DNA from: Aphrocallistes beatrix
Lineage: Eukaryota; Porifera; Hexactinellida; Sceptrulophora; Aphrocallistidae
Length of the DNA: 64,000 bases
Assembly: GCA_963281255.1 (NCBI GenBank)
Contig: OY725504.1
Location: 1,922,001-1,986,000 of the forward strand
Direction: 5' to 3'
A program made the translations under genes and the position numbers. Shown here piece by piece: positions 5,149-60,330 of this stretch. The notes under the pieces are model-generated. The model did no database searches and was not told the origin of the DNA. It saw only the letters and a list, made by a program, of their open reading frames with translations. Within the stretch, counting starts at the first letter, position 1; each line of letters begins with the position of its first letter.

Positions 5149-7009
5149 ATGTCAGATGGGTATAAACGGAAACATGAATCTGGTGCTGAAAAGAGAAAGA
5201 AAAGACATAAGCGAGCAGATAACCTCAAACAATTGAAAAATTCATTGTTAAATTATGTCAATCTACCTGATCACGAAAATGAAGAAAACAATATCGATCC
5301 CATTTTTTACGACGGTGATCAGTCTGAAATTGTTGATATTGAAACTAGTGAAGAAGATGAACATGACAAATATATAGACCCAAACGATGGAAATACAAGT
5401 ACTGATGTTATTGCAATTGCAGAACTATCAACTTCAGAATCAATAGTTACACTACAAGATTCTATATTCTCCAGTGATCCGGCAAAGTGGGAAATTAATG
5501 CTGAACTGATCAGATACTTTACTGAACATTCTCCTTCCCAGAATATAGAATCTGGTTTCATTTTCTCATGCAGAATGTTTGGCAACAAGAAAAGGAATGC
5601 ACGGAAAGAATATTTTACAAGGACATTGGCTAATGGCGAAATAGTCATCAGAGACTGGTTGATGTATTCTACATCTACTGGAAAAGTATTTTGCTATATG
5701 TATAAACTATTTGCAAGAGGTAATTATTTATTAGAAAGTAAATTTCGATGTGGTTTTGATTATTGGAAGAATGCGATATCAAGAATTCAGTCACATGAAC
5801 ATTCTAAAGAACATCTTTCAGTCATATCTGTTAAGTTGAATGTCAAAAGTGCATGCGAATTGATATTGAATTTGAGAAACAGTCAGAAAAAGAAAAGGAT
5901 TATTGAATTCGAGTATTATAAAGGATTGTCGCTGTAACAAGATTTCTGGCAGAGAGAGGGCTAGCTTTCCGTAGTGAAACAGAAATAATTGGTTGCCTAA
6001 GAAATGGGAATTATCTTGGATGCATCGAACTTCTCTCTAAATTTGATCCATTCCTTGCTGAGCATTTACACAGAAATGGAAACCCAGGAAAGGAAAATGT
6101 GTCTTATCTCTCGTCAACAATATGTGATGAATTCTTTGAAATACTTGCGTCTACAATACAATCCCTTATTATATCAGAAGTAAAAGAAGCTTAATATTTT
6201 GGTATCAACATTGATTCTACGCCAGATATAGCTCACATAGACCAACTAACAGTAATTATGTGGTATTACCTTTCTGATGGACATGTGGTTGAGCGATTTC
6301 TTGAATTCATTCCGATAGAACACCATGATGGAAAGTACTTGTTTGAAGTATTGCAAAACGTTCTGAAGTCACACGGAATTGATATAGCAAACTGCAGGTC
6401 ACAATCTTACGACAACGCCAGCAAAATGTCTGGTATATATTCTGGAGTCCAGGCTCGCTTTAGTGAAATTAATACTTTTGCTGAATGGACTCCCTGCGCT
6501 GCACATAGCCTCAATTTAGCTGGATTTACTGCAGTTGAGAGTTGTAATTCAGCTATTAGTTTTTTTGAACTTTTGCTGTCTCTCTACTCATTTCATTCAG
6601 CTTCGCCACAAAGATGGTCGAAACTAACATCAAATATGAAAAGTAAAAGTCATATTATCCAGAGTTTGTCTGAAACAAGATGGTCGACACGCAGTGATGC
6701 TTCAAAAGTTCTGGTTAAGAACTATTCAGAAATTCGACAGACATTGGATGACATAGCTGGTTCTGACAGACATCCTCCGGCAGCAGTCCACGAAGCTAAT
6801 TCATTGAATAAGAAATTAGACCAGCTGGACACTGCACTGATGTCGATTATTTGGAACAATATTCTTCAAAAAAATCAACTTAATAAACAAGTCACTCCAA
6901 GAAGCAGGGATTGAAATATGCACGGTTGTGAAGTTGTATGAAAGCATCTTGTCTTATTTTCAAGCCATCCGAAATAACTTTGATGATTATAAAACGCAAG
7001 CAAAAGAAC

Positions 7010-7117
7010 TGTTGTATCGTATTTTGAGGCGCTATCGTAGATTGAGGCGCTTGTATTACTGAACCAGGGATGCGCAATATAAACTTAGTCTATCGTATTT
7101 TGAGGCACTACTGTAGA
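7010..7117 (+). repeat. Ginger1-A left terminal inverted repeat with three internal 18-mers
   Basis: Besides the terminal TGTTG, the arm carries three direct copies of TATCGTAKWTTGAGGCRC at 7015-7032, 7033-7050 and 7091-7108, with a further degenerate one near 7113. The spacing (two abutting, one about 58 bp on) suggests binding sites for the transposase zinc finger. Confidence 0.85.
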
Positions 7118-9078
7118 ATTCTGAGGCGCTCTAAGCTAAGCTTATTTTATTTATTATATGATGTATGCGCATTTCTACTCTCTCATTTTTATTTATATTT
7201 ATTAATACGCGTAATAGGTCATATTTTTAATGGCTATATACTTAGGGAATTTTGAAATTCATAAAGCGTTAAATGTTGCCATTTCCCTATAAAATTTATG
7301 TACAATTTCGTTCAAAATTGGCGTATCGAGATTTGTTACGATCGTAATTACCACTTGGGCAGTTTTCGGTTCTCATAGTATATATACGTAGTACTTCGCT
7401 ACTATAATAGCATATTAGGGGGTACAGTAAAAATACATTGTCCAGGCGGAGAATAAAAATTAAGACAGACGGGAACGATAAACAAGTAATTAATTTACAT
7501 AGCCTTAGTCCGAAATTGAATGGGTAACTGTTATGAACACAAAATCTTTATGCAGGTAGAGTATAAGCCTAAAATACACAGTAAAATGGTATCCAATGGC
7601 TATCAATATTTTTTGGATATTTTTGAGTGAATTTTTCTACCGAGAAGCGAGATATTACTACGGAGATGATTCAAGTTGTGAATACTTCTTTTACATTTAC
7701 TTATTTCAGGTCTTCTTTTCGAAATTGGTCAGACAATTCAGTCGGATCTTCAATTCAGTTAACTTTGTAGTTGATGAGCATTCTGTTAATTTAGTAAAAT
7801 TTCATTGAAATTCATCAATACCTCGTACAGTATATACATTACTAATTATCTCTATTATCGCCCAACTCCAAGTACGTATCTAATAACCCGTTTACTAACA
7901 AAAGTGACCATTTGAAATAAGCATAGTTACATTTTATTCAACAGCATTGTTACCAAAAAGACAATATCATCATGATACAAACATTAAGCTTTACATGTTT
8001 TAGAATATCAAATTAACATAATTAAATAGCAAACATCATTTACAGCATATGTAACGAATAAACAATAACCTAGAAGAAATGTAAAGGACAGAAGTTGTTA
8101 ATAGATATACGTTGTATTTAATTAATTAAGTGGCGAAATTTTTAAAATAATTTCGAAATTAATAAAGTGGTAAAATTAGTCATTACTCTTTAAAATCTAT
8201 ATGCCATTTCGTTCAAAACGGCTTATCCCGATTTGTAACACAGTGTACAAATCTGGTAGTTTATTATTTAGTATTAATTAGTATATTTAGTTAGTAATAA
8301 TTCAGACATTGTGATGGTCAGCCTATACCGATTTCGAATGCGTCAGATCAATATACTTCTAGAGTCAGATTGTACCGAGTCGAAATGTACAAAATAGCAA
8401 CTGTAGAGTTCTGTGGGTCCGTAACCGATTCGAGCGGATGAACTGAACTCGTGAAACACTGGAGAATCGAGATTGTGTATACCAAGGTCTGAGTAAGAGC
8501 AATTTTCAGACGAGTGACACACGTTCACTTAAGAAACTCATTTTGAAAAATAATTAGATGTGAAATTATAAAAAGTGTTAAATGTTGCAATGTAGAAGCG
8601 AGATTGGTGTGCTCGCAAGTTCATGCGAATTTCTTATTTGTCCATGTATATATTTACACGAGGTTAATTAATTAAATAGCACCAGGATTGTCAGAGGATT
8701 TAGTCAGGAATAGTGTACAATGTACATGTGTATATATTGTATTAGATCGCAATGAGTATTACAAGTAAATGAGTTAACCTAATATATTATAATCTCCACT
8801 GTATTTACTGAAAACGAAACAGACACAGACAATTAAGTACGTAGTAGGACGTCAGTTATCCTAACATGATGGAACTTAACTGAAAGGGGTTCGGATAACT
8901 GACCTTCTACTGTATTGACATAGTATAGTACTTGTAGAAAATAAATTAGTTAAACTCACTTGATTTCAATCTGTGTTTCGTCCCGGGATTGGACTCATCA
9001 GTTACGTTCCCTTTCACGTAATACACAGCAGATGGATGTGTGGGTGGTAATGTGTCTGTGTTTCGATACTGAGTACAT
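7118..9078. other. Ginger1-A non-coding 3' region with an old internal repeat
   Basis: No gene is seen between the left TIR and the OTU stop. Two diverged direct copies of about 85 bp lie at about 7250-7340 and 8150-8241 (sharing CATTTCGTTCAAAA/CAATTTCGTTCAAAA and CGATTTGT). A third partial copy lies near 8557. Their origin is unknown. Neither strand shows convincing protein similarity. Confidence 0.5.
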
Positions 9079-12000
9079 TCATTCGACTAACAGCGCTTCA
9101 TCTGGTACAATCCCATAGGTTGGAGTGGGGCTGTTCAACATTAATATGACTGGTTCATAATGATTAACATAGTTGGTTATGTAGAGAGTGGCAGTCGGAT
9201 TTGTACTAGCTCTATGTAAGCTCCAGCGCACTTCACGAATCAATGAACCTTGACTTCTATATTCGCTGTTAGCTACATATATGTCTGCATCAAGTATAGC
9301 TGAAGCAGCCATGATTTCTACGTCACTTGCCCAAGTCCCTTCAATATGAACAAGGTTTTCCGTTAGAAAATATTCACACGGTGTCGTTCGTTTGGATCTA
9401 AAACACCATCCAAGTTTAGATGCGCCCTCACTCGCAATAAATCTGGCAATCAAGGAGCGAAGCTGTAGATGGCTGTTTTGACTCCCAGTAATTATTTTAG
9501 AGAGGCAACGAAATAAGCAGTTGCCATCTCTTTTAATATCCTCAGTTTCGTAAGGTTCGTAACCACTCAGGGGCCGTCCTACGATATTAGATGGTTGCCT
9601 ACTAACAGAATCGAATGTTAGTCCCAAGATATTGCATTTATTTCTTTGCCACTTCTCGTCATTAACAGCAATTTCAGGGGATTTAGCACGGTTATCTGGA
9701 AAATGATACGGAGTTGTGTCTGGAAGAGTGTCCCACAACATCGTATTCAAGTATTGCATAGCCTAAACGGAAATATTTATTAACTATTCCATCCAGCATA
9801 CAGCATTAGATATTATTGAATACTTACTACTCACACAAAATACAATACTTTGTGTGTATATCGAGCAGCTTGAATGTCGGTTAAGTCAGGAAAGAAATCT
9901 CTCGTCCATCCTAAAACTGTCTCGATTATCTCTCTTCTAAAAAGAATAGTTATTAGATATTGTTGTAATACGCTAAATTGCTTACACGAGTAAATCTTAA
10001 ACTTACAATATTGTCTTCTCTTTCGCCAATCAAAAGCTGAAAAAGTAAAGTATTGGGCACGTAATCATGATTCACCTTGAGCTTGTTATGCAATTCTTCG
10101 TGGAGAGGAGTCATGAAAGTCCCCTCTCTCACGTTCTGCTCAAGAATTCCCTTTTGATGATAAAGATAAATAAAGTAACAACTTAAATAACATCATCATT
10201 AGAATGATAACAGAAACATTATTCGTAGTTACAATAGCATTATACTATTGAATCAGATCTCAAACATTGACGTCAATCAACAGAATTTTGTGAAATAATT
10301 ATCATTATACGTATGAAACCAAAGAAAGAAGAAAAGAAACACCCTTACTTTCAGGCTTGCGAGATGGGTATCTATGGATTCTTTGGTAAATCCGAATAGT
10401 TGAGCCTAGAAAATTGGAACGCCATGATTTATATCATGTTACATATAATTCCTCAAACAACCTCTGGAATCCATATGATATTGCAAAATATAAATTATTT
10501 CCAATTCTCTTACCTGAGAAGAGTCGATTCTTGTTCGCTTTCCATCTGGGCTTGCTTTATCTGTTGATTTCCGCTTCCTCTCTCCTGGTTTGGCAGATCT
10601 TTGAAAGTAAGGTCGCACGATATGAATAGGAATTTTCTTATCGCGATTGGTTCCTAATTCCTCCTTTGAGATCGTAACGTTACTATTCGTTACCTCTGAG
10701 ATTGTATACGGTCCTAAATATTTGGGTTGCTTCTTGGTATTAGGTAACCGCTTGAGTTTAGGCATGTTAATGTATGATATTAGCTCGCCTTTTTTCAGAG
10801 AGGAGCTAGAGTAATTGAATAATAAAATGTAAACCGAAAAGTGAGCATAGATTGAAATATAGCTAAACTAGGAATGTTGTGGTTACTGAAAGTTAATTGA
10901 AAGTGAATGTACACTGAAAATGAAAGTGGGGTCATTTCTGTGTATACTTTTGACCCCAAGTCAAACTCGCAATATATATTATAATTATAATATATATATT
11001 ATTAATTATCATTGTAATTTCAACTCACCATCCTTGATTGACTTTCTTATTGTACTGCATCGACTGTTTCGTTTGCTCGAAATTGATAGAATCAACAGCC
11101 AACTTCTGTGTTGCAGCACGACAATCATCTATCATGAGAACTTCTTCTTGGGGCTGGTCAAGAGGTGGGGAAAATTCATCTTCAATCTGTTCCATTTCAT
11201 CTTGTGGAAGTAAGACTTCAGTTAGAATGGCCTCCTCCATTTCAAAATCTTCTTCAACAGTAGAAGGCAGATTGTTGATGGCCGATAGAAGATCTTCGTG
11301 CCTGGATTCTCTTCCCCACATCACCTTGAATGCTGTTTGTCTGTGAGATTTTTTTTTCGTCGAATTCATTGCAATTGTCGCGGATTTAAGCAGTTTGGAC
11401 CAATGCTCTCCGGTCTGAATTTCCATTTTAGTAAGTTTTCTAAAATAAACATTTTAATGTTTCAATTTAGTACAATGAAAAGAAACAATTCATTAAAAAA
11501 TTGATAAAGAAGGAAATAAGAAATTAGATGGCAACTTCAGATTCAATAACATAGGAACTGAATAAATAACTCACGTTTTAAGAATCTTGTTGCGTGCTTC
11601 CACTAAGTCATTTGCCATTGGGTGGTAAGCACGAGTGCTACGATTATCGACATGTAGCTTTTGGTGAAATTCCTTGAATATCTAGATACATATTATGATT
11701 AACAAGTAGTTATTCAAACACCTGCCGATATATAGTAATAAATGAAAGATATTTACGTACGCTACTCGTGAACTCTTTCCCTTGATCGTGCTGGATGATG
11801 TCAGGTAGTCCTATATCAAGATAGATATCCTTCAAGTTCTGGATTAGTTCTTCTGAGGTTTTAGACTTGAGAGGACGTACCACCACATACTTGCTCAAAT
11901 AGCAAACAGTCACTAAGACATGTTTGTAGCCCTCAGCACTCTCGGGAAGGTCACAAATGAGATCCATTCCTATATGTCTCCATGGAGTTGAAGGAGGTGG

Positions 12001-13304
12001 GATTGGTTGGAGCTTTTTTTGCGGTTGAGGTGGCAAGGCCGCTGACATTTGACATGTATTACAAGTCTTCACCTATTTAATGGTATAATCTTGTCATTAG
12101 CTAGGTAAGATCTTATCATAAGATCATTGAAAATAAAACTTAGAATTGTTTGTTAGCATTTAATCTAGTCAACTAGTTAGGATTTCACACATGGTGAAGC
12201 AATGTTTTCTAAAATGATCGGATTTCTACAATGATGATTTGCAACCCTTTATTTACTACTAATTCAAGTGCTTATTTAAATCAGACATTAATTAAATGCT
12301 AGAATTTAGCAATTCGTTAATTACAATCACTTACATAATATTCAATGTCTTTGTACATCCCTGTCCATGTGTATCTTTGCTGGACTGAATGAACGGTTGC
12401 ATTCATTCCGGGATGGCCGACTTCATCATGGAATTTTTTGTAGATTTCTTGAACCTGAGAACTAGATGGAACTTCCAAATCAGTTTCTCTACCCTTCACG
12501 TTTACTCTCTAGAATAATTAAATTTATAAGTTTGGCCTAGATAGCACTTAAGAAAATTGACAGCTCCATGCTATCAATCCGAATATGTATACATTTCTAA
12601 TGCTTCAGGTGAGCTCACAATTCAATTACTACTAGTTCTAAATCATGATACCATTTTGCAGAACTAGTTCCGTTAGTTCTACATTATTTGACAAATTAGG
12701 CTAATCAAAGGTCATTGTCTAGGGATGAACAGTTATGTTTCTATGGATGGTGCGTCAGAACCAAATATAGGGGAAGAACCATATATGACATAACAGTTCC
12801 AACCCCGCATACACAAACCCAGGGCCAGATTGCACACGATGTGGCACTCCTGCATAGAATATCAATTATCAAGCATTTCAAACCGTCACACCGACATCTC
12901 ACACCCTACCTCGCTCAATATACACTGCTTAGAAGCTTATAATTTACATTCAATATGCAAACAATAAAATGCCATATATGGGGGACTGGCTACGCCACGC
13001 ATTTTTTTCGTCGATTTGGTGGGCCTCACTCAGAATTGAGCCTAAGCCAGTGCAACTTAATTGGCTTGGTGGCTAATACGGCCATTCACACCCAGGCGAT
13101 ACCCCCTTGTACTCCCGAAATAAAAGCAGTAAAATTAGAATATGAAAGCAATCTTACCTTGTAGAGCATGTTGGAATCTCTGATGAAAAAGGATGACAAT
13201 TTCCTTTTGTAATTCCACCTCGTCTTCCGTGAAATCAATGCTTCCTCCGGGTAAGTGCCTTCGGTAAGAAACTTGACGATTTCTTGGAATTTGGCTGAAT
13301 CCAT
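9079..13304 (-). CDS. Ginger1 transposase: integrase core plus OTU cysteine protease, multi-exon
   Basis: About ten exons read leftwards. 13304-13158 carries the YPYY-like region (TYPEEALISRKTRWNYKRK). 12508-12335 carries the zinc-binding HDEVGH part. 12072-11761 carries CNTC, then GMDLI (first Asp) and QHDQGKEF (second Asp). 11681-11575 carries LVEARN (Glu). 11439-11029 is a linker. 10805-10514 has the YLGPYTI (GPY) motif. 10405-10349, 10150-10007 and 9936 to about 9840 are small exons. The last, about 9762-9079, is the OTU domain with DGNCLFR (Asp and nucleophile Cys) and NHYEPV (His). Splicing gives DD35E spacing. Phases join cleanly for the first eight exons. The next junction does not join in frame with the nearest GT-AG sites, and the donor before the OTU exon is weak. 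No exon contains a stop. The role is cut-and-paste transposition. The OTU domain presumably removes ubiquitin from the transposase or host factors, which is inference. Confidence 0.85.
10869..10972 (+). repeat. Intronic repeat shared with 45421-45527
   Basis: The stretch around AATGAAAGTGGGGTCATTTC and TTTTGACCCCAAGTCAAA recurs at 45421-45527 with small differences. Here it lies in the Ginger1-A intron before the GPY exon. Probably a MITE scrap of unknown family. Confidence 0.6.
12509..13157 (-). other. Large first intron of the Ginger1-A gene
   Basis: It is bounded by a GTAAGA donor at 13157 and a TTCTAG acceptor ending at 12509. A CAGGGCCAGATTG word near 12821 resembles a hAT end, so a solo hAT terminus or MITE may lie in the intron, but no partner end was found. 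Confidence 0.5.
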
Positions 13305-13417
13305 TGGTATACTATCGCCAATTACAAATTGATGTATGAAACAAAAACGATATAACGAAATATTGATTCAAAATAGAAAATATTTTGCTTATAATATGGT
13401 TAGTAACATATTTATAC

Positions 13418-13525
13418 TCTACAGTAGTGCCTCAAAATACGATAGATTAAGTTTATATTGCGCATCCCTGGTTCAGTAATACAAGCGCCTCAATCTACGA
13501 TAGCGCCTCAAAATACGATACAACA
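13418..13525 (-). repeat. Ginger1-A right terminal inverted repeat
   Basis: This is the reverse complement of 7010-7117 with one substitution (T/C near 13450). It carries the same three 18-mers in opposite orientation. Confidence 0.9.
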
Positions 13526-14327
13526 GAACTAGTGTCTTCAGATTATATACAATCTTCTTGTGGAAACGTACGCGCAAGATCATGTTTGATGAAGGAGCAA
13601 CACCTGAAGTTTAAATAAATCCAAGTGATACATTTCACACCCAAACGTTCGCGTTCTATGTAATCGTGGATAAACTTATTATAGAAATGGGAAAACGCAA
13701 GGAAGCTTATGCTAGAGGAGATGAAAAATTTAGTTTCCTCACATATCGTAAGCTAACTGAAGTTGAGATAAAGGCGAAAGCGATAAATTTGGTTCAATCA
13801 TACCCATCAGATCTGGAAGTGGACTTCATAGACGAGTTTCTCATTTTTTTCCAATTATACAACGAAACAACAGGAATATGTGAAATGTTGCAATCTCTAA
13901 TCCGAGACAAATTGATCAGTAGCTTCCCAAATGTGAACATCGCCATGATATATCTCGCAATACTTGGAACAAGCTGTGGAGAAAGATCGTTTTCCAAATT
14001 GAAAGTAGTGAAAAATTGTCTAAGATCAACAATTGGACAATCTAAACTTTCATCACTGTCGCTCCTATCTATTGAGTGCGAGTTGCTTCGCTCAATATAT
14101 TTTAGAGACGTGATCATTCAATTTGCGAAGAAAAAGAGCCGGAAAGTCACACTGTAGCCAGCATTCAACTTCATTTCCAAACACTATTAAATAAATTCAT
14201 ATTTATTACTCATTCCATTTATTAAACTAGCATTCCAAAACAAAATTAAATTAATAGGTAAATTTTGTGTCGAAATGCATGAAGAAAAAAAGTACCCCAG
14301 GCCTACTAAGGTATCAATCCGGCCCTG

Positions 14328-50469: not shown

Positions 50470-50580
50470 TGTTGCGTGATATCTTGAGATCCTAGTATTA
50501 AGTAACTATGGATGATTTAGCACCGTGATATCTTGAGATCGTAATATTCTGAGATTTAGGTTTAAATTCTCAAATTAACT
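50470..50580 (+). repeat. Ginger1-B left TIR with two 16-mers
   Basis: GTGATATCTTGAGATC occurs at 50476-50491 and 50525-50540, the equivalent of the repeated 18-mers in Ginger1-A. The right arm 59834-59944 is its inverted partner. Confidence 0.9.
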
Positions 50581-50835
50581 TGTGGCTTGTTTTTATTTAG
50601 TTATATAGGAGTCTAGATTGTATTTGCAATTTCTTTCAAATTTTATTCGTACACACACGCACATATGTATTATTAAAATGTAACATTTATACTGATATTT
50701 GTAATATTGTTAAAATATGGACAAACCTTTTGATCATTAAACTATTTAATTTAAGAATCAATTTATTTATTGAGTTCATTCATTTTAAACCTAATCAATA
50801 TATTTTGGATAACCCCACCTCCGTCTTAATTAATT

Positions 50836-51378
50836 ACAAGCGCGCTTCGTTTGCTTGCGCTGCGCGGCTGGCAGACACTTCGTGTCCGCCGGAGGCTCCC
50901 TTCGGCCGCCTAGAGGTGACATTGGTTAATTATAAGGGAGATATCATCTCTAAACATGTCCATCTTAGTTTTAAAATCGAAATCACTCGAAAAAACACCA
51001 AATTTGTCAATTTTTAAAATTTTGATGAGCAATGATGACGTCATAGCAAAGTGATGAGTCATCATTTTTTGATGATAGTTGCATCATATGTGAGACGTGT
51101 TAGTATACAGATTCTATCAAAATTTCAGCTTTCTATCTCCTATAATAGCTGAGTTATGCTCGAATAACTGTGTTGCTTAACTTTCAAAAATGTTACAATG
51201 ACGTCATAATTCCATGATGAGTCGACATTTTGCTCTGAGCTCAGAATTACTGGAGCCATTGCCAAAAGACTCCCACATGCCAAAAATTAGCTTTCTGTGC
51301 CCGCCAGTTTCTTCAATCAATTCGTTACATATATATATATATATAAATATACATTAATCGAGTTTTAATAGTAAGGAT
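50836..51378 (-). mobile_element. HR repeat, full-length reverse copy (type copy)
   Basis: This copy shows the whole layout. One end holds three GC-rich palindromes: CAAGCGCGCTTCGTTTGCTTG, GGCTGGCAGACACTTCGTGTC and a GGCTCCC/GGCCGCC arm. Then come ATTGGTTAATTATAAGGGAG, ATGACGTCAT boxes at about 51035 and 51200, GCAGGCGCA-like GTGCCCGCCAGTTTC, GAATTGATT (inverted), a TA dinucleotide tract, and AATCGAGTTTTAATAGTAAG at the other end. There are no TIRs and no TSD. The hairpin end plus dinucleotide tract recall Helentron-derived HINE/DINE-1 elements, but the classification is only a suggestion. Confidence 0.8.
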
Positions 51379-51707
51379 GTACTAGTAGTAAATACGATTG
51401 ATTTATTAATGGAATACATTCGAAAATATTGTGAACATATAATGAAATCTGTTATAAAATGTTTGCATAAATACAAATAATACATATTGGAAAGTGAAGG
51501 ACAATTATCAACTGCAGGAATTATCAATCGTCCAGTAAGTTGAGAAGAAAGTGCAGTACCTATATCTGTAAAATATCAGAGATAGCAACCTTTGGAAAAT
51601 GAAATCCGTGAGAATCGAGACAATTCCCCTTCCAACGTTGACAGTCTCATCACTCTTAATCGGTAGAAGACTTGAATGAAAGCCGGTAGAGGTTAGGTTT
51701 CAATTGA

Positions 51708-51800
51708 TACAAGCGCGCTTTGTTTGCTTGCGCTGCGCGGCTTGCAGACACTGCGTGTCCGCAGATTTCCCCAGTGGGCGCTTGGGGATATTAGAGAAAC
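51708..51800 (-). mobile_element. HR repeat, hairpin end only
   Basis: Only the GC-rich end (CAAGCGCGCTTTGTTTGCTTG to the GGGCGCTTGGGG arm) is present, followed by unrelated sequence. Confidence 0.75.
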
Positions 51801-52553
51801 AATACGTCGCTTTCTTGTTTTATACTAAGTACGCTGGATTGTCATTTGTCTACGGTTACATTAATGAAATCAGAACTGTAGCAGAAATTTTGTTTCTTGA
51901 TAAATACAATTTATTTCGTATTAAGTCAACCAATCCTGAATGTAAACTCAATTTGAATACACAAAGTTCACATTGCTAAAGATTATTATACTTGAATAAT
52001 AAATTCCAGTCCATGTCGTTAAAAGTTATTTTATGATCGAATTGATTGATCGTAGCATATAACACACTTTAATTGTTGTTAACAATCAAATTATAGACTC
52101 AAAATAGCATTACTATTCAATCATTTATATGAAATAGAATCGTGTGAATGGCATTATAAAAGGCTGAAGGCTGAATGTACTTACAATTGCCCTAATAAAA
52201 ACAGTGTTCTCTTAGCTAATTAATTATGCGATCTTATTTGTTGATTTGGTTAACGTAACATCAAATAATCATATTAAATGCCAACTAGCATTTTTTCAGC
52301 AAAATAGACTATACGGACGACTCGGGATGAGGACAATTCCTTAAGAAAATAATGTACGTTTCAGTGTTCGTGGTAACTGAGTATTTATTTTACCAAGGCC
52401 TTAACTACTGCCGAGGACAAGCGTATAATATATAAAAAACTTTATCTATTTGTGTTTCGTCCCGGCTTGAACTCTTCAGTTGCGTTGCCTTTCACGCAAT
52501 ACACTTAGATGGATGTGTTGGTAGTGAAGTGTGTGATACTGAGAAATCGCTGT
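51801..52553. other. Ginger1-B 3' region, no gene
   Basis: A non-coding stretch between the HR fragment and the OTU stop. Confidence 0.4.
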
Positions 52554-54082
52554 CTATTCTATGTTGAGGACTTCATCTGATTTCATGCCATAAGTAGGGA
52601 TCGGACTGTTCAGCATCGATACAACAGGTTCATAATGGTTGCCGTAGTTGGTTATATAGATGCTAGTCTTCGAATTGGTACAAGCTCTTAATAGCTCCAG
52701 CGAACCTCATGAATTAAGGATCCGGGTTTTAGATAGTCGTTATTAGAGACGAAGATATCTGCATCGAGAATAGCAGAAGCAGCCATAATTTCCACATCAC
52801 TGTCCCAAGTCCCTTCAAGAAACACCAGGTTTTCATCCAGGAAGTATGTGCATGGAGTTACTCCTTTTTGGCGAAAATACCAGCCAAGTGTCGTCGTTCC
52901 TTCACTTGCAATAAAGTTAGTAATTATTTTTCGAAGTTGAACATGGCTTTCCTGACTTGTTATTATTTTCAAGAGACAGCGGTAGAGACAATTTCCATCT
53001 TCAATGATACTTTCTGTCTCCCAAGGTAGATACTCGCTAATTGGTTGTCCGACGAGGTTTCTTGGCTGCCTTATTGAGGAATGGAATGTAAGCCCAAGTC
53101 TGGAACATGTATCTCTCTGCCATTTTCCCGTCACTACCTTTATGGTAGGTATGCCTTCAGGAATCTCTGGAGTTTTCTCACTCCAATCTTCAGGGAACGT
53201 ATCCCAGAGGGTAGTGTTAAGGTATTGCATCGCCTAGAAAAAAAAGGTTTAAAAAACCGTCTAGTTTCAAAAGTCCAATGATTGAAACGGGAATGTAATA
53301 AGGAAATATTGATACTACTAATTATTTAAAATACTTACAACTCCATAGAGAACTTTTACAGTGTATTTGGCTGCAAGTAGATCTCCGAACTTAGGGGGTA
53401 GAGCTCTGAAGTCCAGCTTTCTAAAAGTATTTATCAAAATAATGACTTGTAATAAGTAGATACAAACTATCCTCAGATTTACGCATCAAAGTCCAAGTCA
53501 AATACTCAAATAATTCAGTGATATCAAATTATCTTGTTCAAAATCATTGACCCAATTATTTTAATTAACGAGAGTGAACTGTATATGTTAACTACATACA
53601 CTAAGCGGACAAACTATTTCAACACTTGATTCTTTCCCATACAAATAATACTAAAATGGGTCTATTCATGAATAGGGTTACTTCTAAACGATATGGGATA
53701 CAGCTAATCGGATTCCAGATTCGAATAATACGCATTCAAATTAGTCACAGGTTAATTTTTCTAATTAATCATTCATTCCTAACTTTTTGTAATTATCAAT
53801 CAGTGCCACCTTATGCCACATACACCCATTTTGACCACTATACATGATTGCAATGAATTACCTATGGTGGCTCAGGCTGATAAGATTGTTCATTGAGTTG
53901 GGTAATTTATTAGTTATGTTCAACTATGACTAATTCGAATGTGTAGATTTCGAATCTGAAATCAGATTTTTAGTATCTCTTTGAATTTGAACGTTATGTC
54001 CTTCATGAAATAATCCGATTTAGTATTATTTGTATGCGAAAGATTCAAGTGTTGAAATACTTTTGTCCGCTTGGTGTATGTA

Positions 54083-54849
54083 CAGGGTGGCTTGTAAGTT
54101 CTGTCCCAAGCTTTATTAGGTATAAAATTTCTTAAACTCAAACAATCTTAGTTATTATGGTCTTTAGAGATTGTAATTCGAATATTCTCAATGATTTTAT
54201 AAGATTTTTCGATTCTATTACTTAGAAATATGTTTTGTATGGTGAGTTTTGAGAAAAGAAAATGTGTCCTGGTACGCAGCGAAAATCGAGAATCCAGGCC
54301 ACTGCTTCTGTAAAAAATGTCTCTAAAATCGATGTTCCATGACGATTTAGCACCAGATACCTTTCATTCACCATTGAAATGTTTCACAAATCCATTGCAT
54401 TCATTATCAGAAACGAGATAAAGTTATTATTTCACTACTTCAAATTAGGTACATTTTGCAAAATCACCAATCACCAAAAAATCATCACCAAAAAATCTGA
54501 TCCAAAAGGTTCTCAATATATACTGATCTAAACATTCTATATTTCTACAAATTTATAGTGTTCGAGGAAAATGTGTGAGCTAATTTTTCCTAAGATTTGA
54601 AGACTCTCGGAAGAAAGCTTGAAAAGCAGTGGGCCCTGATTCACGATTTTCGCTGCGTGCCAGGACACATTTTATTTTTCCAAAACTCACCATACAAAAC
54701 ATATTTCTAAGTCATAGAATCGAAAAATCTTTTAAAATCATTGAAAATATTCGAATTACAATATCTAAAGACCATAATAACTAAGATTGTTTGAGTTAAA
54801 GAAATTTTATAACTAATAAAGCTTGGGACAGAACTTACAAGCCACCCTG
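54083..54849. mobile_element. Foldback MITE FB2, copy 2
   Basis: CAGGGTGGCTTGTAAGTTCT and AGAACTTACAAGCCACCCTG between TA dinucleotides (54081-54082, 54850-54851). Same family as 29154-29885. It lies in a Ginger1-B intron. Confidence 0.9.
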
Positions 54850-56352
54850 TACATGTAAATATAGAAATATATATTAATATTTAAAGATTTAAAATAATTA
54901 CCATGTTGTCTTCTGTGGTGTCATTAAGAAAACTGAATATCAAGGTGTTGGGAACGTACTCATGGAAACGATTAAGTTTCTTATGCAAGTCCTCGTGCAA
55001 TGGGGTCATAAAAGTGTTGTCTCGTATGTTCTGTTGTAGAATCGGCTAGAAAATAGATCATAGAAATAACATTCTAACACGCTAAAAATGCATCCTAATC
55101 ATGTTTTGGCGTTAATTATTTATAGGTTTTATTCTATTGTGTGAAACATACCTTGAAGTCGTGAAGTTTTGAAAGAATGTTGCCTTTTGAAAATCCGAAC
55201 GGATATCGTGACTAGCATAAAGAAAGTAAGAAAAGAAATTCATCATCACATATTCTACAGGAGATGATATTACATTCTTCAAAAGTATTTGGTATTTACC
55301 TGCCGAAGTTTCTTGCTTGGAGAATCAGATGTTGTTTCTGATTTAATCTTACGCGTTGCTCCGCCATGTCCGAGATCTTGTTTATAGTAGGGTCGTACTA
55401 TGTCAATCGGTAGCTTCTTCTCCTTATTTAGTGACCCAGCGCCAGCTTTCCGATCAGGAATGATAACATGACTTTCAGTCATCCGTGTGACAGTATAAGG
55501 CCCTAAATATTTACTTTGATGCTTGGTGTTAAGCATCTTCTTTATTTTGGGCATGTTAGCGTATAGGATGTAATCGCCTTCCTTTATCTCAGGTCTATTA
55601 TGAATATCGAATTATCAAACTTTTTTCTATTTTCTATACTATACCTCTTTCATCATCGAACCTCTTTCATCATACGGGAACATTTTAGAATTGACTAATT
55701 ACTTAGGTAATATAAAAATGACTGTTAGATTCATTACATCAAATTACCTCTTCTGGGAAACTTTCTTGTCATATTGCCTCTTCTGCTTCAACTGCTCTGT
55801 ACGAATCTTTTCACTAGCTAGTTCAAAAGTGTCACTTCTGAATTGATCAAGTATTTTAATGGACTCTTGTAGCTGTTCCTGGAGTGGAGAGACAGTGTCA
55901 GGTAAATCTCCTTCTTCAACTATATCATTAAGGGAGAGAATGACCTCCTCCATATTCATGTCATCTTCTGCAGAAACTGATATGTTGTTGATATTTGGAA
56001 TAAGGTCCTCGTATCTGAAATTTCTTCCCCACATTATTCTGTATGGCGTATTCCCGTGTGATTTCTTATGAGTAGAATTCATGCAGAAGAGAACTGATTT
56101 GAGTAGTTGCGGCCAACTACTAGTATGTTGGGATTGAACAACCATTTTATTCAACTTCCTATTTACAATGTACATAATAATATTTTAAATATTTTACTCG
56201 TGATTAATCAGCGAAGCCACTCATAATTAAGAAACTCGAATTAACTAGATTAAACTCTTACGTACGCCTTTAGGACTTTGTTTGTGCCTCAACTAATCCG
56301 TTAGCCATCGAGTGATAGGCACGAGTACTCCGATTTTGAATACCCAACTTAA

Positions 56353-58283
56353 GGATACCGCCCTCGAAAAAACATATGATTTGCATTACAGCATACGATG
56401 AAATTGAGGTATAAGAGATGTTAAGCGTGGGGAGGTATCTCCATCAAGAAATACTGGCACATTCCAAACCGTTTTTGATTCTCATTTCTAGATTTTGAGA
56501 TACAGTGTCTCAAAGTCTGTTTTTTTAATTTTCCACTAGCACATCTTAATGGTAGAAATTTAGACACTCAATGAATTGTTTAGGACATACCAAGGAATCA
56601 AACGCGCTTCCAAAATCGAATCATAGATAGTCTACCATATTTGCAACTTCATAGGACCAGAAGAAAGTTAAAATGACAAATATTGTAAATTTTATCGGGG
56701 TCCGAAAAAAAAGGGCCAAAAATATCTGTTTTTTTGGGGAAATCATTAATAAAATCACCGAGTTAGAATATATCCAAAAAATGGTGGTCCTACGTTCATC
56801 GCCTAATGATATGAAACAACTCTTGAAATTTTCAAACTTCTATCTCAAACCAAATTTGAGAAATAATTCTGTAAAGACGGTCAATTTTGAAATTTTAAAG
56901 TCCCGAGATATAGAGATTTTAAGTTTAGGTGTTAAGAAGAATGTAAAATGAGTTATTAATAATGCACATAAGCATCCACAGACATTTATTCGCATCCATA
57001 CTGCTGATTTAGGTATATTAAAGCCAAATATTTACCAAAAATAGCAAAAGTACCCTGAAAATCCACAAATTTCCTTGAGGCCCCTAACTCCGATTATTTT
57101 GAGATAATTGTAGATAATATTTAATATTCCTGGCACTGCGAAGTATAATCTATCAGTTTAGAATGAATAAAAAGCTTCCAAAAAGTATATTAGGAAGTTA
57201 GAGCGAAAGTCTACGACTTTTAGTTTCGAAGTTAGGATTTTCGAAAAATGCTACGTCATCATATGACAAAAATTTAAAACTTAACATTCCATAGGGTGTA
57301 GTGCAATTATTATCAAAGAATCATATAGGTACACTCATAAAAAGTATATTAGGAAGTGAGAACTAAGAATTTGGACTTGTATTTATCAAGATAGAGAGAT
57401 ATCTCTTTTTGGACCCTAAATGGTGGTTTTTGACCGAATTTGCGAGGTCCAAGGCCAGAACTTTCAAAATAATTATCAAAAGTTCTCCAATTTTTCTGTA
57501 CATATTATTAACGGCAATTGTATTTACTATTTAGCATAATAGCTAAATTTGGACACATATTTAATGATTAGATTCGCCATTTTCTAATAGAGTCAAAGTT
57601 CTCCATAGAATTTGTATTAAAATTAAATCAATGATAAGTCGAGAATTATTTATTTTTTGACAAAGGAATGGTCGAGGAACCTATATATTTTCGCATATAT
57701 CCTTTTATTTAAGGATATAATATATTATATATCTACAATAGTTTTTAAGATATGACATCGACCACTTTCGGGACCTTAGAGGGATATTATGGCCGAACTT
57801 TACCTATAATATGCGATATCTCAAGAACAAATGGTCGGATCTGAACAAATTTTTTTTTGAAACGATCAGAATTTTATTTCTGACCCAGGGATCGCTAAAT
57901 ATCTGAGATCAAACTTGCGATTTCCCGAGGATTATATAAATGAACTCCCATATAGAGCTATTTTGTTTGGATTTTATTTGCCCATTCTTTTAAATCTTTG
58001 TGTTTTATAATCTCCAAAGGTGCTAAAACAATGTTAAGGTTCATATCATTAAAAAAATATCAAATAAGTTAAACACTAATTGGTAAATGAGTTAAAATCC
58101 TCTAATAATTTTTCAATTTTTATTACCGCTAAACTTTAGGGGGTTATTTCGCAAAAAATAAAATAAAATGCCGTCCAAATAGTGCTATCAGATGGTAGAC
58201 CGATCAGTAATACAATGAAATTAGCAATAAAACATTTTGCTGTTTTTTTTTACGCCAGGCAAGATTTTTCGAGGGCGGTATCC
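56353..58283. mobile_element. TTAA-flanked element with GGATACCGCCCTCG ends, complete copy
   Basis: Ends GGATACCGCCCTCGAAAAA and TTTTTCGAGGGCGGTATCC, each next to TTAA (56349-56352, 58284-58287). The TTAA target suggests piggyBac, but the ends do not resemble known piggyBac CCY termini. It cuts the exon holding the third catalytic residue of Ginger1-B. There is no convincing gene in 1931 bp; a 92-codon frame at 56673-56951 has no features. Confidence 0.85.
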
Positions 58284-60330
58284 TTAAGAGTAAACTCCTG
58301 AAATGCCTAGAAATTTTAGCAAATTCGATAATACGAGTATATTGAAGAAATTCTTGTAAAATAAATATTACTTTGGAGGTGAATTCCTTTCCCTGATCAT
58401 GCTGTATGATATCTGGCAATCCGAACTCCAGGTATATATCCTTCAATTACTTCATTGGTTGTCTTCGTCCTGAGCGGTCTTGCAACAACATACTTAGATA
58501 GGTAGCACACCGTCACTAGCACATGCTTGTAACCATCCGGAGTCTCAGGGAGATCCATCAGGTCCATTCCGATGTGTTTCCAAGGTCTGTCTGGAGGTGG
58601 AATGGGCTGCAACTTCCTCTGATGCTGCTGGGGTAGAGGTGTATCACTTTGGCAACCGTTACAAGATTTGACCTAAACACAAACTAATTATTTAACAACA
58701 TATTTGAATGGGCAATTGATTAAATTGTTTCTTAATTAATCTCCACTATAATGGGCTATTAATTTAATACATAATAATATTATACTTACGTACTTCTTAA
58801 CGTCTGGACACAATCCACCCCATGTGAAACGTTGTTGGACTGCCTGGATTGTGGAATTCATTCCAGGGTGACCCAATTCATCGTGATATTTTCTGAGGAT
58901 ATCTTTTATTTCTTCACGAAGAGGAACTTGAAGGTTCAACTCTTGGCCGCACTGTGATACTTTCTAAGTGCAAAATGTAATGATTAGCCGGACATACCTA
59001 ATTTACAGAATGGGATGGAACCATTCCGGGAAATCTGAATACCTAATTTAAGGGAACGGTTGCGGAATTTTACTAAATCTCTATATTACGGAATATTCCA
59101 TTTCAGATACGTATTATAAATTCCTAATTTATGGAATGTTCCGTATATTTGGTATGTCCTGATTAGACATTAAAACAAGATTTTAGGAAAATATTTTTTC
59201 CTGATCCAACTAGACTATGGCCAGAATCGAAAAGAAATACCTTGCAGGTCCGGGATCAGTACTTGTACGACTAAAATTTAGTTCCAGGACTGGTACTGCA
59301 ATTTTATTTTCGTTCCCGTTCAGGTGCTGTGGATACTTCTTTAAATTTCCGCCCAAAACAAACGTGAATCGTATTTTACACATACATAATTTAATAAATG
59401 CCACCTCTAAATTGTATGCACCAAATAGGCAACTGCCTAGTGATGGTAATAGGACGCGGTACGGCCATACCCGCCCCGGTTGTATGTTTTGCTTGTTCGC
59501 CTTACCTGAGAACTACGTTCGGACTAATAAAGTAATAAATAAATCAAAACTTACTTTACAAAGTCTCTTTGGCTCTGTTTCGGAGAGAGTATAATTCTCA
59601 ATCTTTCTTTTGAAATTCCCCAGGTGTTTTGGAGAGATTTTGGTAGCCTCTGGATAACAACCTTTGTCAAGAAATTCAAAGATTTCTTTGAACTCTTCAG
59701 GATTCATTCAAATCGTTGAAAACAATATCTATTAACGATACGAAAAGACTGTCAAATACAAATTGAGTGACCTTTTTCAAATAATGTATTTATATAAGAG
59801 CGACAATCTAAATAAGATACATGAAAACAAACCAGTTAATTTGAGAATTTAAACCTAAATCTCAGAATATTACGATCTCAAGATATCACGGTACTAAATC
59901 ATTCATAGTTACTTAATACTAGGATCTCAAGATATCACGCAACAGTACTAAACCTAAATTGTAGATACGTATAAGGTTATGGACTTATGGTAACCCATGA
60001 AATTACTGAAGAGAGTAATTAAAACCGCGACTACTCGAGGGAATGAGTCTCGAATAGCAAAACAAGACTCAAAACATTTTCCGCGAATGGCAAACTCGCG
60101 AACGGCGAGGGTTGCCTGTATACTATATCTGTAACGAATTGATTGAAGAAATTGCCAGGCGTAGAAAGCTGATTTTTGGCATGTGGGAGTCTTTTGGCTA
60201 TTGCTACACTAAGTTCTGAGCTCAGACCAAAATGTCTACTCATCATAGGATTATGACGTCATTGTAACCTTTTTTGTAATTAGAAACTTTGTCCGCCAGC
60301 CGCGCAGCGCAAGCAAGCGAAGCGTGTTTG

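Follow-up and report, generated by a model that had tools for sequence, protein, structure and literature searches.

A Ginger1-type transposon with an OTU domain in Aphrocallistes beatrix, and the GNNC target of its relatives

A 64,000-nucleotide stretch of the genome of the sponge Aphrocallistes beatrix (assembly GCA_963281255.1, contig OY725504.1, positions 1,922,001 to 1,986,000), called the window here, contains an element that seems to join an integrase-type transposase to an OTU deubiquitinase-like domain. The locus raises the question of what kind of element this is, whether it is complete, and how elements of its kind choose the sites where they insert. We found a 6,516-bp element with terminal inverted repeats (TIRs) at positions 7010–13525. 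Its termini, an empty site, its protein domains and exon blocks common to 25 further loci support its assignment to the Ginger1-type transposons that carry an OTU domain. The TIR arms (7010–7117 and 13418–13525) were identical at 107 of 108 bp and the 4-bp target-site duplication (TSD) GAAC was present on both sides, just as an earlier note on this DNA had described; the interval 7006..13529 given in that note includes both GAAC copies. The TIR length of 108 bp and the first bases, TGTTG, agree with the roughly 40–270 bp and the TGTNR start that define Ginger1. Each arm held three GTATTTTGAGGC-like motif copies, with the order mirrored between the arms, and these are plausible as putative transposase binding sites.

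6195–6914, plus strand: interrupted host sequence, hAT-like transposase (DUF4371 match, below the family cut-off)
7006–7009, no strand: left copy of the TSD GAAC, which is single at the empty site L038
7010–7117, plus strand: TIR, 3' end of the gene-oriented element, starting TGTTG, with motifs GTATTTTGAGGC / GTAGATTGAGGC at 7019, 7037 and 7095
7118–9078, no strand: long 3' part of the element, gene not recognised, with four listed open reading frames (ORFs)
13418–13525, minus strand: TIR, 5' end of the gene-oriented element, with the mirrored motifs at 13429, 13487 and 13505
13526–13529, no strand: right copy of the TSD GAAC, in the flank of the element
13615–14157, plus strand: hAT-like host sequence on the other side (weak Dimer_Tnp_hAT match, below cut-off)

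The empty GAAC site that the earlier note had proposed to look for was found at locus L038, which is an insert-free, 92%-identical copy of the interrupted hAT-like sequence on the same contig, about 600 kb distant. It had one GAAC, and its alignment across the joined flanks was 91% identical (956 of 1,052 columns) and gap-free at the joint. The window element is complete at the level of its DNA ends. The four listed ORFs of its 3' part had no Pfam match, and this part also contained a 70-nt direct repeat, 79% identical, at window positions 7248–7317 and 8149–8218.

The gene lies on the minus strand and has ten predicted exons separated by nine GT-AG introns, a model predicted from homology and splice sites. 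The order of domains was a YPYY-like start, H2C2, integrase core, GPY module, a conserved unnamed linker and OTU.

13158–13304, minus strand: predicted exon 1, ATG start and YPYY-like motif (homologous exon in 20 of the 27 loci searched)
12335–12508, minus strand: predicted exon 2, H2C2 zinc-binding domain (PF17921, E 6.8e-15)
11761–12072, minus strand: predicted exon 3, integrase core (first Asp codon 11962–11964, second 11785–11787, counted by hand)
11575–11681, minus strand: predicted exon 4, catalytic Glu codon 11598–11600 (DD35E), adjacent Gly replaced by Asp in the window copy
11029–11439, minus strand: predicted exon 5
10514–10805, minus strand: predicted exon 6, GPY module (KYLGPY)
10349–10405, minus strand: predicted exon 7
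10007–10150, minus strand: predicted exon 8, conserved unnamed linker (TFMTPLHEELHNKL...YVPNTLLF)
9835–9936, minus strand: predicted exon 9, 2-bp and 1-bp shortfalls against sister copies, with the stop at codon 565
9079–9762, minus strand: predicted exon 10, OTU cysteine-protease domain (PF02338, E 4.8e-9; Cys codon 9517–9519, His codon 9160–9162)

The DD35E core, GPY motif and OTU domain with Cys and His motifs noted earlier were all recovered: the D-D-E spacing was 58 and 35 residues, GPY was read directly as KYLGPY, and the OTU exon matched PF02338. No Pfam model matched the GPY exon, and relatives showed variants of the motif, some having GP without GPY/F. Most of the 20 relatives with exon 1 showed the pattern Y-P ... 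W-N-Y/F ... L-Y/F-K, which we called YPYY by eye against the description in the 2010 paper on Ginger elements, not against its sequences (PMC2836005). For the integrase core (rve, PF00665), the window exon alone scored 31.7 bits, just under the cut-off of 32.6, and the protein of a sister copy scored 36.2 bits, over it; H2C2 in the sister protein reached E 3.1e-18. The solved structures nearest to the core exon by sequence were integrase 2x6n (E 2.1e-6), PFV integrase entries (E 4e-6) and Ty3 (E 1.8e-4), and NCBIfam gave weak matches of the core to IS481 (E 5.8e-6, far under its cut-off) and IS30 (0.086).

Copies above 98% identity, which the earlier note had proposed to look for, were present in the genome: L009, L010 and L011, called sister copies here. 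They were 99.0–99.8% identical by BLAST to the window copy, from which they differed by 0.61–0.72% substitutions in alignment. Their TSDs GTGC, GGGC and GGCC were all different, so the sisters represent separate insertions. L009 and L011 differed at 5 of 6,517 aligned positions, which bears out the word "young" for the family, and both had an open 810-codon reading with nine GT-AG introns. L010 had a shift in exon 5, and the AG before this exon was missing; L011 had about 469 bp extra in its 3' part, at the place of window position 7489. Exon 9 of the window copy was short of 2 bp near 9936 and of 1 bp near 9835 when compared with all three sisters. With standard splice sites, the reading of this copy ended at a stop in codon 565 and so did not reach the OTU exon. 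A wrong splice model was rejected as the cause of the exon-9 boundary puzzle, since the sister copies show that the shift is in the window copy. The GLVE motif of the catalytic Glu had Asp in the window copy in place of the Gly found in 24 of 24 relatives matching exon 4 (27 loci searched). Translation of the window copy would most likely end before the OTU domain is reached, and this copy is probably non-autonomous now. The earlier note's statement that no exon contains a stop therefore does not stand, and its "apparently complete" is true of the DNA ends and not of the predicted gene. Because the reading stops before the OTU exon, its suggestion of activity fails for the window copy as an autonomous element, but could hold for the two sisters with 810 open codons.

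We searched the 100.5-Mb genome for relatives with the OTU exon (152 matches; 150 of 489 candidates scored) and with core exon 3 (150 matches; 150 of 740 scored). The core exon was present in the 25 further loci of this genome, sisters included, and the other exon blocks were present in most of them. When the 150 listed core matches were compared with the 150 listed OTU matches, 80 core matches were followed within 8 kb downstream by an OTU match on the same strand, compared with a mean of 1.2 and a maximum of 5 in 200 trials of random placement; the OTU match lay upstream for 1 listed core match and on the opposite strand for 8. The OTU and core distances between 12 distinct loci (66 pairs) rose together (r 0.53, with 1 of 5000 permutations as high), which is expected if both domains travelled together. 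At more than 5% OTU difference, the 26 loci compared comprised at least 12 distinct OTU-bearing kinds. These sequence comparisons indicate a large radiation of Ginger1-type OTU elements within one 100.5-Mb genome, which is new here. A Ulp1 domain in place of OTU was also considered and rejected, as none of the 9 Ulp1 matches in the genome fell within the Ginger loci examined.

The ends of these relatives allowed us to analyse target choice. Both ends with an exact 4-bp duplication were found in 23 of 31 distinct loci, and two ends were not found in the other 8 (L014, L016, L017, L026, L031, L032, L033 and L041; L015 lies within L021). The filter required TG..CA ends and a matching pair of 4-mers and set no condition on G or C, and part of the ends were located by similarity to the window element's own ends. 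The pair retained was the one at the conserved TGTTG/TGTTT end. Extra pairs that passed the filter inside repeats or the locus gave TGCA, ATAT, GCGC and CGCG, and those elsewhere gave TTAA and ATAT outside the L021 element, ATAT outside L040 and GCGC in a second Ginger-type element of the window. The TSD was GNNC in 23 of 23 elements, compared with 3.05% of the 4-mers in the window, and the insertion lay within AGNNCT in 20 of 23, compared with 0.31% in the window; the exceptions were L009, L018 and L020. The published target, CCGG or CCGT/ACGG, was found in none of the 23. Bao and colleagues had reported CCGG for 75% and CCGT/ACGG for 24% of 112 hydra elements (PMC2836005). The target of the elements analysed here is GNNC, mostly AGNNCT, which is different from the published rule and new here: a GNNC target was unreported in the literature searched (including PMC12863088, PMC10045372, PMC12440569 and PMC6431247), with Repbase reports and most subscription journals outside the search. 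The ends of L019, L020 and L021 started with TGTTT, which does not fit the R of TGTNR. At L014 there was a lone right end at 461 followed by GATT, which is not GNNC; the 801 bases examined yielded no left end to pair with it, and for this reason the lone end was not counted.

Insertions recurred at a single nucleotide of an abundant repeat. All seven GGCC insertions (L011, L013, L019, L022, L025, L034 and L035) lay at the same place of one repeat, and the seven elements were of several kinds of Ginger. Five of them (L019, L022, L025, L034 and L035) resembled L011 at 86–97% over 223–250 bp of repeat-side flank, and L013 had a 36-bp end in common with L011 at 89%. L012 was inserted in a related repeat at another position and with a different duplication. 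In L043 (750–1818) the repeat formed a palindrome about 1,069 bp long, 93% identical between its arms, and the insertion site was near its tip. This palindromic repeat was very common, with 2,914 first-look candidates, of which 40 were scored. Counting one site per candidate, hot-spot sites would make up about 0.9% of AGNNCT sites, and the chance of at least 7 of 23 insertions falling there would be about 1e-9, which is a rough figure, as the candidate count is unverified, the AGNNCT frequency was taken from the window and the loci were picked for well-kept genes. Without the seven hot-spot insertions, GNNC was still found in 16 of 16 and AGNNCT in 13 of 16. Neither Rfam families nor tRNAs were detected when the seven hot-spot loci were scanned. 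It is possible, although we regard it as a doubtful extension, that a Ginger1-type lineage switched its target from C..G to palindromic AGNNCT, that it prefers one nucleotide near the tip of a palindrome, and that the deubiquitinase activity of OTU is needed for its transposition. If this is true, the lineage would be the counterpart, among DNA transposons, of the site-preferring retrotransposons, and its transposases would form a natural series from which to learn how target bases are selected by an integrase core.

For the OTU domain, the deubiquitinase motif Asp-Gly-Asn-Cys with a His was present. The catalytic Cys was kept in 27 of 27 OTU rows (L015 and L021 being one place), and the His was kept in 24 of the 25 rows reaching it, L026 being the only exception. 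A Pfam OTU match was obtained for 15 of 15 aligned homologous exons; in the 15 intact OTU sequences of this alignment, which were chosen without stops, D79, C82 and H201 were invariant. The ratio of nonsynonymous to synonymous substitution (dN/dS) between families was 0.03–0.12 in the 11 of 55 core pairs that had a finite dS and 0.08–0.14 in the corresponding 7 of 28 OTU pairs; the remaining 44 and 21 pairs were saturated in dS, and rows with stops had been excluded beforehand, so the figures describe the better-kept copies. Both domains look to be under constraint between families. Since the catalytic Cys and His are kept across families, a working protease is favoured over a passive binding module, and the comparison favours OTU as an active deubiquitinase. 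One scan of viral contigs for a viral source of the OTU exon found no relative.

We consider it quite probable that the window element is a copy of Ginger1 type that moved recently and by now is probably non-autonomous, and that would work as follows. The transposase of intact sister copies would bind the repeated GTATTTTGAGGC motifs of the inverted repeats, and its DDE core would cut at TG...CA. Like gypsy and retroviral integrases, it would then join one end to each strand of a palindromic A-GNNC-T target, at points staggered by 4 bp. The OTU domain would act as a working deubiquitinase that trims ubiquitin off the transposase, or off repair or chromatin proteins at the insertion site, and may thereby preserve the complex until repair has taken place. 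The window copy, whose ends are kept, could then be moved in trans. That attached proteases help repair after transposition was already suggested in 2010 (PMC2836005).

The role of OTU is the step for which other explanations have to be weighed. It is unlikely, but worth stating, that OTU has lost the ability to cut ubiquitin and serves only to anchor the transposase at target sites by binding chromatin that carries ubiquitin, on histones for instance. The position of OTU at the C-terminus after the GPY module would suit this, as some gypsy integrases carry chromatin-reading domains at the same C-terminal place after GPY; yet a pure binder would be free to lose both the Cys and the His, which were kept as described above. 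Still less probable is that OTU acts as a protease on its own protein and releases the integrase part. The conserved linker between GPY and OTU would speak for this, but the nearest solved relatives of the OTU profile by sequence were the deubiquitinases OTUD1 (E 4.7e-8) and OTUD5 (about 6e-5), and the matches to OTU parts of viral polymerases were weaker. A fragment of a gypsy long terminal repeat (LTR) retrotransposon that has lost its reverse transcriptase and LTRs would account for the gypsy-type integrase modules, but it is very improbable: 23 elements had TIRs and the 4-bp duplication, the gene is split with exon blocks common to several families, LTRs and reverse transcriptase were absent from the relatives read so far, and no reverse-transcriptase (RVT, Pfam) match was found in 18 of the 20 ORFs of at least 60 aa lying wholly in the element. 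The LTR element was rejected on the inverted ends and target duplications. A domesticated host gene has the constraint between families and the precedent of Gin-1, Gin-2 and Imagin, which are domesticated Ginger1 genes (PMC2836005, PMC12863088), in its favour, but it was rejected as hardly credible on four near-identical copies at four sites with different TSDs.

Several results weigh against the account of a non-autonomous Ginger1-type copy with a working OTU deubiquitinase. Four alternative exon-9 splice-site pairs keep the window frame open to the end of OTU, so the window gene may still be read through to OTU. Of the 150 listed core matches, 70 had no listed OTU partner within 8 kb, to which the match limit, decay and OTU-less elements can all contribute. 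A relative of 2,986 bp at L040 (1911–4896) had two good ends and the TSD GGTC and no OTU match nearby among the matches listed; these two results together mean that OTU may not be universal among the elements of this genome. The AlphaFold2 model of the OTU exon, built from two window sequences, had a mean predicted local distance difference test (pLDDT) score of 33.2, and the OTU fold is predicted from sequence profiles. An ORF beside the L040 element resembles, by eye, a MINDY-type deubiquitinase.

The fusion itself is not new, because Ginger1 elements with OTU have been known since 2010 and were tabulated for hydra, sea hare and aphid (PMC2836005), the examples being Ginger1-1, -2, -3 and -11_HM, Ginger1-1_AC, and Ginger1-1 and -2_AP. 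Thus, the earlier remark that such elements are rarely documented was half right. The elements described here share with them YPYY, H2C2, the DDE core, GPY, the C-terminal OTU, TGTNR ends, the 4-bp duplication and a TIR of 40–270 bp (PMC2836005). They differ in the GNNC/AGNNCT target, where CCGG or CCGT/ACGG was published, in their large radiation within one genome, and in nine predicted introns, where 0–4 were tabulated, a number that is not strictly defining (PMC2836005). Since the protein features and the TSD length agree and the target sequence and intron number do not, we call the window element a variant of the Ginger1 kind. Ginger2/Tdd elements likewise have an integrase-like transposase, TIRs and TG..CA ends, but Ginger2 lacks GPY and YPYY and has the target RTATAY (PMC2836005), and it was rejected on the GNNC target and the presence of GPY and YPYY. 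Gypsy and retroviral integrases such as PFV and Ty3 share H2C2 and the DDE core, and GPY as described in PMC2836005, whereas the element here has introns and OTU and no LTRs or reverse transcriptase were found in it. Helitrons also carry an OTU cysteine protease on a DNA transposon, but with another transposition enzyme (PMC2836005, PMC6431247). The host genes Imagin, Gin-1 and Gin-2 are likewise Ginger1-derived and multi-exon, and, unlike the element here, domesticated; Imagin has no inverted repeats and its DDE motif is defunct (PMC12863088).

Beyond the 2010 description, the present data show an active site that is conserved across families, a target rule that differs, and young copies that look intact. 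Should no further findings follow, these elements would be a new member set of the class described then. With at least 12 OTU-bearing kinds, the genome offers material for two questions, namely the role of an attached deubiquitinase in transposition and the integrase residues that choose the target bases.

Other observations were made beside these. The second Ginger-type element of the window, at 50470–59944, was decayed, had a length of 9,475 bp and the TSD GTAC, and its matches were an OTU exon match cut short (52694–53233, minus strand) and a gapped core match (58442–58672, minus strand). The Ginger element at L021 (10–7408) was nested in a longer inverted-repeat pair flanked by TTAA, perhaps a piggyBac-like element. 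L039 was a mitochondrial contig, in which COX1 had 11 in-frame TGA codons and AGR at serine positions and, by eye, read best with the invertebrate mitochondrial code.

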